A DNA stretch of 64,000 nucleotides, from positions 186,001 to 250,000 of the forward strand of contig NZ_VNWN01000004.1 in assembly GCF_012720115.1 (NCBI RefSeq), read 5' to 3'. Both the position numbers and the translations under genes were made by a program. This document shows, in pieces, positions 27,904 to 38,468 of the stretch. The stretch's first letter is position 1. Each line of letters starts with the position of its first letter. This stretch comes from Sneathiella chinensis (GTDB lineage Bacteria > Pseudomonadota > Alphaproteobacteria > Sneathiellales > Sneathiellaceae). Under the pieces are notes generated by a model. It was given only the letters and a program-made list of their open reading frames with translations, did not search any database and was not told the DNA's origin.

Positions 27904-28003
27904 GGGGCTTCCTCTCACAGACTGTTGAATTGTATTTTACCGGCGCCAATCCAATTATTCCTTCTGAAGTGGTTGATTTTCGCTATTGAAGGAGGAGAAG
28001 GGC

Positions 28004-28978
28004 ATGCTCATCAGGATCAGGAAAAGCTGGGAGATACAGGAAAGCCGCGTCACGCCTGAGGCAACGTACGTGAACCGCCGGGATATTCTGCGGGGAATGG
28101 GGCTTGGCGGACTGGCGATCGGATCGGCTTCTCTTGGTTTGCCGGGAAAGGTGTATGCGGATAATGCAGACCCCAGCCAGAGCCTGTATCCGGTTTCCCG
28201 AAATCCGGCCTATCAGGTGGATCGGGACCTGACCCCCTACAAGATCGCGTCAACCTACAACAATTTCTATGAATTCGGGTCGCACAAGAATATTGCCCGG
28301 GCGGCGCAGCGCCTGAATATCCGACCGTGGACGGTCACCATTGATGGCATGGTGTCAACACCGCGTGAGATTGCCATTGATGATCTTCTTGCCCGAATGC
28401 CACTGGAGGAGCGGATCTATCGCCATCGCTGCGTCGAGGCGTGGTCCATGGTGGTGCCATGGAGTGGTTTCCCCTTGAAGGAACTGGTTCGTCTGGCCGA
28501 CCCGACGGCAGATGCCCGGTATCTGGTCATGCAGACATTCGAGGACAGTTCCGTTGCATCCGGGCAGAAGCAATTCTGGTATCCGTGGCCCTATACAGAG
28601 GTCCTGACACTTGAAGAGGCGACCCATGATCTCGCCTTCATGGTGACCGGTCTTTATGGAAAACCCGTTCCCAAGCAAAACGGGGCCCCGCTGCGGCTGG
28701 CGGTTCCGTGGAAATACGGGTTCAAGCATGTGAAGTCCATTGCCCGTTTCAGTTTCGTCAAGGAGCGGCCGAAAACCTTCTGGGAAACCCTGAACAGCGA
28801 TGAATATGGTTTCTGGGCAAATGTGAACCCGGATGTGCCGCATCCGCGCTGGTCACAGGCAAGCGAGCGGGACATCGGAACAGGGGAGCGCTTCCCGACA
28901 CTGCTTTTCAATGGCTACGCCGAAGCGGTTCAGGGGCTTTATCGGAATGTTGAGGATAAAAGCCGCCTGTTCGTATAG
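28004..28978 (+). CDS. msrP: Protein-methionine-sulfoxide reductase catalytic subunit MsrP
   Basis: This periplasmic molybdoenzyme of the sulfite oxidase fold repairs oxidised methionines in envelope proteins. The 324-aa precursor has a Tat signal with twin Arg at 25-26 (NRRDILRGMGLGGLA), a mature region with SHKNIARAAQ, and RHRCVEAWSMVVPWSGFPL in which Cys143 should bind molybdenum. The C-terminal RFPTLLFNGYAEAVQGLY is typical. Start at 28004 follows GGAGGAGAAGG. The membrane partner MsrQ, usually the next gene, is absent here; the minus-strand small-RNA array follows instead. Confidence 0.93.
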   Translation: MLIRIRKSWEIQESRVTPEATYVNRRDILRGMGLGGLAIGSASLGLPGKVYADNADPSQSLYPVSRNPAYQVDRDLTPYKIASTYNNFYEFGSHKNIARAAQRLNIRPWTVTIDGMVSTPREIAIDDLLARMPLEERIYRHRCVEAWSMVVPWSGFPLKELVRLADPTADARYLVMQTFEDSSVASGQKQFWYPWPYTEVLTLEEATHDLAFMVTGLYGKPVPKQNGAPLRLAVPWKYGFKHVKSIARFSFVKERPKTFWETLNSDEYGFWANVNPDVPHPRWSQASERDIGTGERFPTLLFNGYAEAVQGLYRNVEDKSRLFV

Positions 28979-29003
28979 TTGTTTTCTCAGACTGTACAAA
29001 AGG

Positions 29004-29155
29004 AAAAGCCGGCCTTTGGGAGAAAGGCCGGCCAGTCTAACAGGGAGATCTGTCTTATGAGAAAGACAGGCAGTAACCTCAATTTGGGAGGGTGAGGTTA
29101 CCGCAATTCAGGCTTTCACCCGAAAAGCGAAAAGTTAGGGGAACTGTTTCGCTTC
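29004..29155 (-). ncRNA. Candidate small RNA A of a tandem hairpin-RNA array
   Basis: Read on the minus strand there are four hairpins. HP1 (29127-29152) has loop CCCCT. HP2 (29073-29101) has stem GTAACCTCA/TGAGGTTAC and loop CCCTCCCAAAT. HP3 (29050-29069) has stem CTGTCTT/AAGACAG. A linker with CTCCCTGTTAGACT precedes terminator HP4 (29008-29032), GCCGGCCTTT-CTCCC-AAAGGCCGGC then TTTT. The T-run falls after the stem only on the minus strand, which sets the orientation. The 5' end is approximate. Three of four loops expose CCCC/CUCCC sequence complementary to Shine-Dalgarno regions. No expression evidence is available to me. Confidence 0.72.
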
Positions 29156-29211
29156 ATCCACATGTAGGTATGCAGGGGGAGGAATTGAATCCCTGAAAAG
29201 GCATGGCAGCC

Positions 29212-29226
29212 ATGCAGAAAACGCAT
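29212..29226. promoter_or_regulatory. LysR-type dyad upstream of small RNA A
   Basis: ATGCAGAAAACGCAT is an ATGC-N7-GCAT dyad with T and A separated by 11 nt, as in LysR boxes. Similar 15-mers precede RNA B and RNA C. Confidence 0.55.
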
Positions 29227-29238
29227 GTAGGGCGGATG

Positions 29239-29421
29239 AAAAAAAAGCCAGCCTCATAAGAGGCTGGCAAGTCTAACAGGGAGGTACACCATCTAAGGAT
29301 GGTGAAGGTTGTTCGCAAATGGGAGGAAAGCGAACAACCGGGAATATCGATAAGGGATCGATATTCGATCAATATTGCGGTGCAACGTTGATGAAGGGAA
29401 TATAGGGGTAACCGTCGGGCC
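29239..29421 (-). ncRNA. Candidate small RNA B of the array
   Basis: On the minus strand HP1 (29342-29366) is GAATATCGAT-CCCTT-ATCGATATTC, HP2 (29307-29339) has a perfect 10-bp stem GGTTGTTCGC/GCGAACAACC with loop TTTCCTCCCATTT, and HP3 (29287-29304) is CACCATC-CTTA-GATGGTG. The linker CCTCCCTGTTAGACTT follows, then terminator HP4 (29247-29268), GCCAGCCTC-TTAT-GAGGCTGGC with eight Ts. A possible promoter is TTGCAT at 29450-29455 and TATGTG at 29428-29433 (16-nt spacer), giving a start near 29421 and an RNA of roughly 180 nt. The promoter is inferred. Confidence 0.75.
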
Positions 29422-29449
29422 GTGCTACACATAATTTTGCAGTGCACCT

Positions 29450-29464
29450 ATGCAAAAACTGCAT
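29450..29464. promoter_or_regulatory. LysR-type dyad upstream of small RNA B
   Basis: ATGCAAAAACTGCAT, again ATGC-N7-GCAT/T-N11-A, overlaps the putative -35 element of RNA B. Confidence 0.55.
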
Positions 29465-29545
29465 TCCCGTTAAATCATTGAATTAATTTGTAAAAATATA
29501 ACAATTGGGGCAAGTGCGCTGCAATAAAACTGTCATACTTTGGGC

Positions 29546-29744
29546 AAAAAAATTGCCAGCCTCGGGAGAGGCTGGCAAGTCTAACAGGGAGGTTGCCATG
29601 TCAGGGGGACATGGCAGGCTGTTTGAGATTGGGAGGAAATCAAACAGCGTTTCGCGAAAAGTTGGGAGACTGTCGCGAAATTCGGTAGTGCTGCGATGCA
29701 GCATCTGATGACCTGTATTTATGAAATTCCTGAAGCAAATAGAA
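29546..29744 (-). ncRNA. Candidate small RNA C of the array
   Basis: On the minus strand HP1 (29650-29680) is TTTCGCGA/TCGCGAAA with a CTCCC loop, HP2 (29618-29648) is GCTGTTTGA/TCAAACAGC with loop TTTCCTCCCAATC, and HP3 (29594-29616) is TGCCATGTC-CCCCT-GACATGGCA. The linker CCTCCCTGTTAGACT follows, then terminator HP4 (29553-29578) with core GCCAGCCTC-TCCC-GAGGCTGGC and a T7 run. A TATATA at 29751-29756 could be the -10 element, giving a start near 29744. The terminator stem matches RNA B exactly, while the HP1 sequence resembles RNA A, so the three are duplicated and partly mixed copies. Confidence 0.75.
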
Positions 29745-29766: not shown

Positions 29767-29781
29767 ATGCGTTTATTGCAT
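29767..29781. promoter_or_regulatory. LysR-type dyad upstream of small RNA C
   Basis: ATGCGTTTATTGCAT (minus strand ATGCAATAAACGCAT) differs from the RNA A site ATGCAGAAAACGCAT at only two positions. It lies just upstream of the putative RNA C promoter and about 60 bp after the end of the LysR gene. Confidence 0.6.
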
Positions 29782-29840: not shown

Positions 29841-30731
29841 TCAGAAATGGGATTCCGCGATCTTCTGAATCAGGAAGTCCCGGAAAATTGTCACCCGTTT
29901 TGATTTCCGAAGCTCCTCCGGATACACATAATAGGCGTCAAAGCTGGGGCCTTCCACTTCCGGCAGGATGCGGACAATATTGCTGTGACCCTGCACAATG
30001 TAATGGGGGAGGCTGCCAATACCGACACCGCTTTCGATGGCGAGAAGCAGTCCATAGACGTTGTTCACCTTGAAGATGGGCTCCACCCCCTTGTCGATCT
30101 GGGACAAGGTCTGCATGATCCAGTTTACATTCGAGATGTTGGATGGCGCTTCATCTCCATACACAATGATATTGTGGGAGATCAAATCCTCGACGCAGGT
30201 CGGGGCACCATGCTTTTGCAGATATTCCGGCGACGCATACAGGTGATGGCTGACGGTCATCAGCTTGCGCTTGATCAGGTCCGGTTGGACCGGTTCACGC
30301 AGGCGAATGGCAACGTCGGCTTCGCGCATGCCAAGGTCCAGTTCCTTGTCGGCCAGAACCAGGTTGACGGAAACATCCGGGTAGACATCCAGAAAATCAC
30401 GGATACGGGGGGTCAGCCAGTTGGCTCCCAATCCCACGGTGGCCGTCACCTTGATTTCGCCGGACGGCTTTTCGCGGGAATCCAGAAGGCGTGCTTCTGT
30501 CATGGCCAGTTTGGCAAACACCTCATGGGCCGTGCGGAACAGCAACTCGCCCTGCTCGGTCAGCAGCAGGCCGCGGGCGTGACGATGGAACAGGGAAACA
30601 GTCAGGCTTTCTTCAAGGGCACTGATCTGGCGGCTGACAGCGGATTGACTGAGATGCAGGGCTTCACCCGCACGAGTGAAGCTGCCTGCCTCTGCCACCG
30701 CATGAAATATTCTAAGTTTGTCCCAATCCAT
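29841..30731 (-). CDS. LysR-family regulator of the VtlR/LsrB type
   Basis: The 296-aa protein starts MDWDKLRIFHAVAEAGSF with a winged helix TRAGEALHLSQSAVSRQISALE and continues FHRHARGLLLTEQGELLF and LLDSREKPSGEIKVTATVGLG, which I recognise as the LsrB/VtlR group. LsrB (Sinorhizobium, Agrobacterium) acts in oxidative stress and envelope control; VtlR (Brucella) activates the small RNA AbcR2 and small DUF1127-type proteins. Like lsrB it lies beside trxB. Here it is directly upstream, on the same strand, of three candidate small RNAs. A large inverted repeat precedes its start. Confidence 0.85.
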   Translation of the reverse strand: MDWDKLRIFHAVAEAGSFTRAGEALHLSQSAVSRQISALEESLTVSLFHRHARGLLLTEQGELLFRTAHEVFAKLAMTEARLLDSREKPSGEIKVTATVGLGANWLTPRIRDFLDVYPDVSVNLVLADKELDLGMREADVAIRLREPVQPDLIKRKLMTVSHHLYASPEYLQKHGAPTCVEDLISHNIIVYGDEAPSNISNVNWIMQTLSQIDKGVEPIFKVNNVYGLLLAIESGVGIGSLPHYIVQGHSNIVRILPEVEGPSFDAYYVYPEELRKSKRVTIFRDFLIQKIAESHF

Positions 30732-30863: not shown

Positions 30864-31835
30864 TTATTCCGCGGCTTCCTGTGCGGCGTGATCCTCATTT
30901 TCTGCCAGATATTTTTCTGCCTCCAGCGCCGCCATACAGCCGGTACCGGCTGCTGTAACCGCCTGACGGTAGATCTTGTCCTGTACATCGCCGCAGGCAA
31001 AGACGCCGGGGATGTTGGTCGCGGTGGAATCCGGGGCGGTGAGGATATATCCCTCGTCATCCATGGTGATCTTGCCAGCAAAAACATCCGTATTCGGTTT
31101 GTGGCCGATGGCGACAAAAACGCCGTGAACAGACAGGTCGCGGGTTTCCCCGGTATTGACGTTCTTGATCCGGGCACCAGTGACGCCCAGCGGGTTGTCA
31201 TCCCCCAGAATTTCCTCAAGAACCGTGTCCCAGATAACCTCGATCTTCGGGTTCTTGTGCAGGCGGTCCACAAGGATTTTTTCCGCCCGGAAAGAATCAC
31301 GGCGATGGATGACGGTGACCTTGTCCGCATGGTTGGTCAGGTACATGGCCTCTTCAACGGCGGTGTTGCCGCCACCAACAACAAGGACTTCCTTGCCGCG
31401 ATAGAAGAAACCGTCACAGGTTGCGCAGGCGGAAACGCCAAATCCCATGAAGGTCTGTTCCGAGGGCAGGCCCAGCCATTTGGCTTGTGCACCTGTTGCG
31501 ATGACGATGCTGTCTGCCTTGTAGACATTGCCGGAATCAGAAGTCGCCACATAGGGACGGGAGGAGAAATCCACGTCGACAATGATGTCATGGTGAATGA
31601 CGGTTCCGACGTTGCGGGCCTGCGCTTCCATCTGTTCCATCAGCCACGGCCCCTGAATGGGGTCTGCGAAACCGGGATAGTTCTCCACCTCGGTGGTAAT
31701 GGTCAATTGCCCGCCGGGCTGAATGCCATGAACCATGATGGGGTTAAGGGAAGCCCGGGCCGCGTAAACGGCGGCGGTGCATCCGGCCGGACCGGATCCG
31801 ATGATTAGAACACTGGTGTTGAAGGTCTCGGCCAT
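30864..31835 (-). CDS. trxB: Thioredoxin-disulfide reductase
   Basis: This FAD enzyme passes electrons from NADPH to thioredoxin. The 323-aa product has the FAD motif IIGSGPAGCTAA (11-22), the redox pair Cys137/Cys140 in ACATCDG, the NADPH motif VVGGGNTAVEEA and the C-terminal GVFACGDVQDKIYRQAVTAAGTG. The ATG at 31835 follows CAGGAG; an upstream ATG at 31865 is less likely. It is upstream of the VtlR/LsrB-like gene on the same strand, a conserved alphaproteobacterial pairing that fits an oxidative-stress role. Confidence 0.97.
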   Translation of the reverse strand: MAETFNTSVLIIGSGPAGCTAAVYAARASLNPIMVHGIQPGGQLTITTEVENYPGFADPIQGPWLMEQMEAQARNVGTVIHHDIIVDVDFSSRPYVATSDSGNVYKADSIVIATGAQAKWLGLPSEQTFMGFGVSACATCDGFFYRGKEVLVVGGGNTAVEEAMYLTNHADKVTVIHRRDSFRAEKILVDRLHKNPKIEVIWDTVLEEILGDDNPLGVTGARIKNVNTGETRDLSVHGVFVAIGHKPNTDVFAGKITMDDEGYILTAPDSTATNIPGVFACGDVQDKIYRQAVTAAGTGCMAALEAEKYLAENEDHAAQEAAE

Positions 31836-31963
31836 TTCTTGCTCCTGAAAATCCTGTCTTCGCACTGATCGCGTTTGCGCGAGTGTCTCTATTTATTACG
31901 CGTGGTATGGACATGCAAGGGGCAGTATGGAGCAATTCCCGAAGGCAGCCTGCTTCTGGTTGT

Positions 31964-38169: not shown

Positions 38170-38262
38170 AAAAAAAAGAGCCGCCGAATGGGCGGCTCAA
38201 GTCAACAGGGAGGCGTCAAACAGATTGGATGAGATCCAATCCACAGCCCTAGTTGGGCTGAC
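38170..38262 (-). ncRNA. Candidate small RNA D, diverged copy of the array RNAs
   Basis: On the minus strand CAGCCC-AACTA-GGGCTG (38244-38260) is followed by GATTGGAT-CTC-ATCCAATC (38223-38241). The linker CCTCCCTGTTGACTT (compare CCTCCCTGTTAGACTT in B and C) then leads into terminator GAGCCGCC-CATTC-GGCGGCTC with eight Ts. The 5' end may lie further upstream. The conserved linker and terminator architecture link it to RNAs A-C, 9 kb away, although the CCUCCC-loop hairpin is missing. It lies between DUF1192 and metY. Confidence 0.68.
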
Positions 38263-38468
38263 ACTAATCAATTTAGGGGGATTTCATTAAATTACAATTA
38301 ATGAATACACAAAAATTACCAAAAATAATCAGTTTTTTATGTGGAATATCGCCTTGCAATTCGAAAGAATAACAATGTATTCCTAAAATAATGTGTTTTT
38401 TCAGTCAGATAGATTGTGGCGCCGCCTTGTGGCGGTCTTCGGTTCCGGATAGTCGGGGCTGACCTTTC

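Follow-up and report, generated by a model that had tools for sequence, protein, structure and literature searches.

The window studied here, a stretch of 64,000 nucleotides of the Sneathiella chinensis genome, contains a locus with the gene order trxB - lsrB/vtlR - array - msrP. The gene trxB (30864..31865, minus strand) encodes a thioredoxin reductase and is placed upstream of lsrB, as in Agrobacterium, and lsrB/vtlR (29841..30731, minus strand) encodes an orthologous LysR family protein of 296 aa, which is the predicted activator of the array. The interval extends on the minus strand from lsrB, which ends at 29841, to the convergent gene msrP (27986..28978, plus strand), which closes it at 28978, and three small RNA units lie in between. 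A preliminary description had placed three minus-strand units of about 150-200 nt in this region. This was borne out, as they occupy approximately positions 29708-29545, 29398-29237 and 29167-29000, and their size could be refined to about 160-168 nt from the predicted starts. The linker reported for each unit is indeed shared: CTCCCTGTTAGACT occurs exactly three times in the 3.55-Mb genome, always in the array and on the minus strand. Each unit had also been credited with a terminator followed by a T-run; the minus strand has three such terminators where about one is expected by chance, and the other strand none, but in unit 3 the T-run is not continuous (TTTTCCTTTT).

Unit 1 (29545..29708, approximately 164 nt from the predicted start) begins with the hairpin P1 (29703-29689), followed by P2 with a CUCCC loop (29680-29650), P3 with a 13-nt loop holding UUCCUCCCA (29648-29618) and P4 with a CCCC loop (29616-29594). 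These precede the linker ACCUCCCUGUUAGACUU (29577..29593), a second anti-Shine-Dalgarno (anti-SD) motif in which CTCCCTGT is invariant in 81 sequences from many genera, and an intrinsic terminator with CUCCC in its loop (29546..29578). Unit 2 (29237..29398, about 162 nt), which scores 74.9 bits with the array model, has P1 (29392-29368), P2 (29366-29342), P3 with the loop UUUCCUCCCAUUU (29339-29307), P4 (29304-29287), linker (29285-29269) and terminator (29268-29247), and is preceded by a predicted -10 element, CTATAT (29400..29405), according to the alphaproteobacterial sigma70 consensus in PMC8844928. Unit 3 (29000..29167, about 165-168 nt) is the most diverged, and its first hairpins differ from those of the other units. 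It has P3 with CCCUCCC in the loop (29104-29070), P4 (29069-29050), a linker that reads AUCUCCCUGUUAGACUG where the other units have ACCUCCCUGUUAGACUU (29049-29033), and a terminator with a CUCCC loop (29033-29007). All these elements are on the minus strand.

The strong hairpins that had been claimed are confirmed by folding, the energies of units 1-3 being -65.9, -63.9 and -69.1 kcal/mol and the z-scores -9.5, -11.2 and -8.2, with none of 200 shuffled sequences folding as well. The C-rich loops are also predicted to be unpaired as described (0.75-1.0 for CUCCC, CCUCC and CCCC), with the exception of the linker motif of unit 3 (0.34). The same plan is common in Sneathiella: P1 of the GAUGUUGC-NNN-GCAACAUC type, P2, whose loop is often C-rich, P3 of 8-13 bp with UUCCUCCCA in its loop, P4, linker and terminator. 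CUCCC-rich units follow lsrB in each of the 22 Sneathiella loci whose sequence continues beyond this gene, and usually two or three of them can be recognised by their linker; the orthologous loci include that of S. chungangensis.

In a joint alignment of all units the 5' hairpins were misaligned and covariation was weak, and it was therefore computed per unit position. For unit 2 (21 genomes) 94.0% of the cells pair, 24 of the 51 pairs have changed on both sides, and 114 double-change cells were counted against 39.5 +/- 6.5 in shuffled alignments (0/500); when the partners were slid as a control only 29-44% were paired. Unit 1 (15 genomes) gave 77 such cells against 24.0 +/- 4.4. The P3 loop and the linker, on the other hand, hardly vary across Sneathiella, and this combination of covarying stems with nearly fixed loop and linker is as expected of structured RNAs whose unpaired binding sites do not change. 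Conservation of stems and linker in close relatives, on which the first reading had been made to depend, is thus present, with hairpins that keep pairing in up to 22 Sneathiella genomes. Small ORFs within the interval were rejected as genes because the stems covary.

The LsrB proteins are 76-80% identical within Sneathiella and 54-65% identical at the trxB locus elsewhere, and the next LysR protein in the same genome is only 32% identical to LsrB. In Sinorhizobium meliloti, LsrB activates abcR1 via GCAT-N3-TG-N3-T at -61 to -49 (PMC8844928). An exact match to this pattern, GCATAGGTGCACT (29453-29441), precedes unit 2 at approximately -60 to -48 of its predicted start, and the pattern is found between units 1 and 2 in 22 of 22 Sneathiella loci. 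The sequence GCATGGCTGCCAT before unit 3 fits it as well, so that the published consensus is matched in full before units 2 and 3, and its GCAT half lies within a dyad present at all three. This dyad, ATGC-N7-GCAT, is of the classical LysR type (T-N11-A) and emerged from comparing other genera. It occurs three times in the window, one per unit and 179-190 nt upstream of the linker core: at 29767..29781 for unit 1 (190 nt), at 29450..29464 for unit 2, where it runs into GCATAGGTGCACT, and at 29212..29226 for unit 3. Of 34 loci in other genera, 20 have it exactly and 30 with no more than one mismatch, where the background is 0.05 and 0.40 per kb, respectively. Moreover, it stands ahead of 7 of the 11 inspected sRNA copies without lsrB detected alongside, and therefore the box belongs to the promoter of the RNA and not to lsrB. 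As regards the protein itself, the LsrB of this locus has a single cysteine, C179, and lacks the pair C144/C273, described as a conserved redox-sensing pair in Agrobacterium LsrB (PMC11975290); no cysteine column is common to more than 9 of the 103 aligned orthologues.

A model search of related genomes, as had been suggested, recovered relatives across the class, the 3'-module model matching 191 of 386 sampled Alphaproteobacteria (E <= 1e-5). For 19 of the 29 loci from this search lsrB was in the fetched flank. Model R1 holds terminator pairs only and thus acts mainly as a sequence profile. Many other genera have one RNA downstream of lsrB, with the near-invariant block UACGUCUCCCAGACGUGAAGCCUCCCUGUUCAACUU followed by a terminator; genera with such a single-copy relative include Minwuia, Kiloniella, Magnetovibrio, Aquibaculum and others, usually with the ATGC-N7-GCAT box. 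In two Minwuia loci (L046, L047) the CCTCCCTGTT motif occurs once more (CCTCCCTGTTCAGCA), 41 nt ahead of the main linker core, which suggests an extra motif of that lineage. In several genomes the class-wide sRNA is located apart from lsrB, and some of these genomes have two copies at a distance of 2-50 kb (for example G310, G325 and G225); the box is often present at these copies too.

The statement that these RNAs belong to no named Rfam family holds at gathering thresholds, but significant matches exist below them. SorX (RF02784) scores the units with 39.3, 38.4 and 36.5 bits (best E 8e-8; threshold 46.6), suhB/MmgR (RF00519) with 35.5 (unit 2), 21.7 and 21.5 bits (threshold 41) and SorY (RF02651) with 15-32 bits (threshold 111). 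At curated thresholds 16 lsrB loci gave no Rfam match either, the nearest being SorX, suhB and SorY, and the wider family also scores best with SorX. These scores raise the alternative that the units are stress sRNAs of the SorX/SorY/SuhB(MmgR) group, which have an end consisting of CCUCCCUGUUNGACUU plus terminator, and that they depend on stress sigma factors or on processing of the 3' end of the lsrB mRNA, not on LsrB. The SorX/SorY RNAs of Rhodobacter have a nearly identical CCUCCCUGUUGGAC(U) linker ahead of their terminator, transporter mRNAs are among their targets too (PMC8307010), and SuhB/MmgR, which is in the same Rfam clan as ar15 (CL00108), shares the CUCCCU...AGACUU end. Nevertheless, all scores stay below gathering and concern only the 3' module, the SorX/SorY models being without P1-P3 and SuhB/MmgR having only 77 nt. 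Moreover, SorX/SorY differ in locus and origin: going by the title of a work cited in PMC8307010, SorX derives from a 3'-UTR, and it is not an lsrB-linked gene. Processing of the lsrB mRNA, for its part, would not need the conserved box and terminator found at each unit. We therefore consider this alternative unlikely.

A BjrC1505 sRNA (RF02356, 65.5 bits) is also present in the window at 38171-38298 on the minus strand, 9 kb from the array. The array model scores its 3' end, which consists of CCTCCCTGTTGACTT and a terminator, with 26 bits. This is thus a second sRNA of related 3' design; it is without the ATGC-N7-GCAT box.

Two multicopy systems resemble the array in design. The LhrC1-5 RNAs of Listeria are multicopy and tandem and carry UCCC several times, in loops, in the linker and in the terminator, but they belong to an unrelated phylum and are an analogy only. 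The CcsR1-4 "cuckoo" RNAs of Rhodobacter, proposed earlier as an analogue, are likewise C-rich, homologous and arranged in tandem; to our knowledge no link to LsrB is known for them. They are not the best analogue, as CcsR1-4 of R. sphaeroides are co-transcribed with ccaF1 (PMC8307010), whereas the array has lsrB and msrP as neighbours, and box and terminator are present for every single unit.

The AbcR system is a better analogue, on account of the position at lsrB/vtlR and trxB, the LsrB-type box at each copy and the predicted transporter targets. The preliminary description is well supported in its proposal of anti-SD sRNAs, but the analogues that it named are not the best ones, and it left AbcR unmentioned even though it had recognised the VtlR/LsrB gene. 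In Agrobacterium the order is trxB-vtlR-abcR1-abcR2, with a trxB-vtlR pair described as a conserved feature of the class (PMC7486931), and in S. meliloti abcR1/2 adjoin lsrB (PMC8844928, PMC3712013). Of 80 named loci, 76 have trxB upstream of lsrB and 24 have msrP on its far side; Kaistia and Roseibium, where msrP also lies beyond the sRNA, are among the latter. The intervals after lsrB in Pleomorphomonas, Roseibium and Kaistia give weak, sub-threshold matches to ar15/AbcR (RF02345), and the motifs CUCCUCCC and/or UUCCCCUC, known from AbcR, are present at most of them. This synteny, together with the matches and motifs, identifies the position of the array, directly downstream of trxB-lsrB/vtlR, as that of AbcR.

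The likeness to AbcR1/AbcR2 (alpha-r15, RF02345; Sinorhizobium, Agrobacterium and Brucella) is not limited to the tandem arrangement downstream of lsrB/vtlR with trxB upstream (PMC8844928, PMC7486931, PMC3712013). It includes an LsrB-type box at equal distance, seen in the array as a sequence match, solute-binding-protein targets, predicted in the array, and one anti-SD motif in a hairpin loop with another in a single-stranded linker. In AbcR a loop carries aSD1, CUCCUCCC, while aSD2, UUCCCCUC, lies between the hairpins; the units agree with this in layout but not in letters, having UUCCUCCC in the loop and CCUCCCUGUU in the linker. The array differs in having three copies with a box on each, whereas in S. 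meliloti only abcR1 is LsrB-dependent. In addition, the Sneathiella units have five hairpins, about 160-168 nt and different motif sequences where AbcR has three hairpins and 114-121 nt, and they do not reach the RF02345 threshold (>= 40 bits), with no ar15 row in the Rfam scan. A search with RF02345 across the class gave zero matches, controls included, and says nothing on absence. With a model of nine lsrB-linked rhizobial AbcR-like loci the Sneathiella units score 15-22 bits, above most other places and little above the 14-18 bits of lone terminators on the reverse strand, so that sequence homology to AbcR is only suggestive. Unit 2, like the alpha-r15 family (PMC7143759), is partly homologous to SuhB (35.5 bits). 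In the literature searched we found no report on AbcR in Rhodospirillales. The units thus probably work like AbcR, at the AbcR locus, and are probably related to it; as model score and three-hairpin form both fail for alpha-r15, we keep to the term AbcR-like.

Targets were searched by sequence patterns only. The extended 10-nt complement of the P3 loop, TGGGAGGAAA, has 16 matches in the genome, two of which are the array's own hairpins, against one for the reversed control. Two others form the Shine-Dalgarno sequence of genes for Peripla_BP_6 solute-binding proteins, at a distance of 3-4 nt from the ATG, and one more is located ahead of a predicted lipoprotein. The 30 loci fetched from nine further Sneathiella genomes contain 22 ORFs of 60 aa or more with TGGGAGGAA 2-8 nt from the ATG; 10 of these encode solute-binding proteins, and there is also a LivM-type permease. 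With the canonical AAGGAGGAA as control the same genomes gave 2 of 22 solute-binding proteins (Fisher p = 0.008). These counts are small and partly non-independent, four of the ten matches being one orthologous gene, and strong Shine-Dalgarno sequences may be common in solute-binding genes. One Peripla_BP_6 gene has the site in five genomes. Predicted loop-complement sites were also seen at the start codons of four TRAP-type (DctP) and one SBP_bac_8 solute-binding genes (L229, L232, L238, L239, L248). The linker complement, AACAGGGAGG, is enriched as well (19 against 3, the sRNA genes themselves included) but has no convincing start-codon targets, for which reason we regard the P3 loop as the more likely principal site of targeting. 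The AbcR targets livK and prbA of S. meliloti are of the same kind (PMC8844928). ABC-transporter mRNAs would be candidates for repression at the ribosome-binding site. Together with covariation and conservation, this target signature supports well the earlier reading of structured trans-acting sRNAs with exposed anti-SD motifs.

The repetition of CUCCC motifs within one RNA and in tandem copies would also suit C-rich decoys or sponges for an RNA-binding protein or another sRNA, acting without pairing to mRNAs. We regard this as quite improbable in view of the excess of loop complements over the reversed control and of their position at the start codons of transporter genes. That the stems are mere terminators or intergenic repeats without trans function seems more improbable still, for the convergent lsrB and msrP do need terminators and there are three terminator-like sites, but each unit has four further hairpins with compensatory changes, a nearly invariant unpaired linker and loops, an upstream box and class-wide conservation.

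In our judgement the array is quite probably a triplicated and divergent counterpart of the AbcR locus, that is, three LsrB-activated anti-SD RNAs that repress transporters. LsrB/VtlR, encoded directly upstream, would bind the ATGC-N7-GCAT dyad centred at about -65 before each unit and activate each unit separately, giving three transcripts of about 160 nt that stop at the intrinsic terminator of their own unit. The large P3 loop of each RNA would expose UUCCUCCCA, or CCCUCCCA in the case of unit 3, and the linker ahead of the terminator CUCCCUGUU; in some units P2, P4 or the terminator would add C-rich loops, the anti-SD sites being redundant in each RNA. The RNAs would then pair with the ribosome-binding sites of transport genes, mainly those of periplasmic solute-binding proteins, competing with the 16S rRNA for these sites and blocking translation, probably with the help of Hfq.

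As to the origin of the system, we lean, without strong conviction, towards an ancient circuit of LsrB and an adjacent anti-SD sRNA that would predate the split between Rhizobiales and the rhodospirillum-like lineages. Outside Rhizobiales it would be represented by an uncatalogued RNA family with a near-invariant UACGUCUCCCAGACGUGAAGCCUCCCUGUU core, AbcR would be its rhizobial descendant, and in Sneathiella it would have been triplicated, each copy having an LsrB box. Since LsrB outside Rhizobiales is without the conserved redox cysteine pair, the ancestral signal may have been other than thiol oxidation.

If this reading is true, the AbcR circuit, known from rhizobia, extends to many other Alphaproteobacteria. 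New here are a large, alignable RNA family absent from Rfam and a refined candidate LsrB site, ATGC-N7-GCAT, which is directly testable, and the Sneathiella array offers a natural triplication for examining the division of labour between copies. The AbcR RNAs and VtlR/LsrB have been studied as host-interaction regulators in rhizobia, Agrobacterium and Brucella. That other Alphaproteobacteria, Sneathiella and Kiloniella among them, have an AbcR-type pair of regulator and RNA together with the likely binding site suggests an origin of the circuit in the control of nutrient uptake and a later use in host association.
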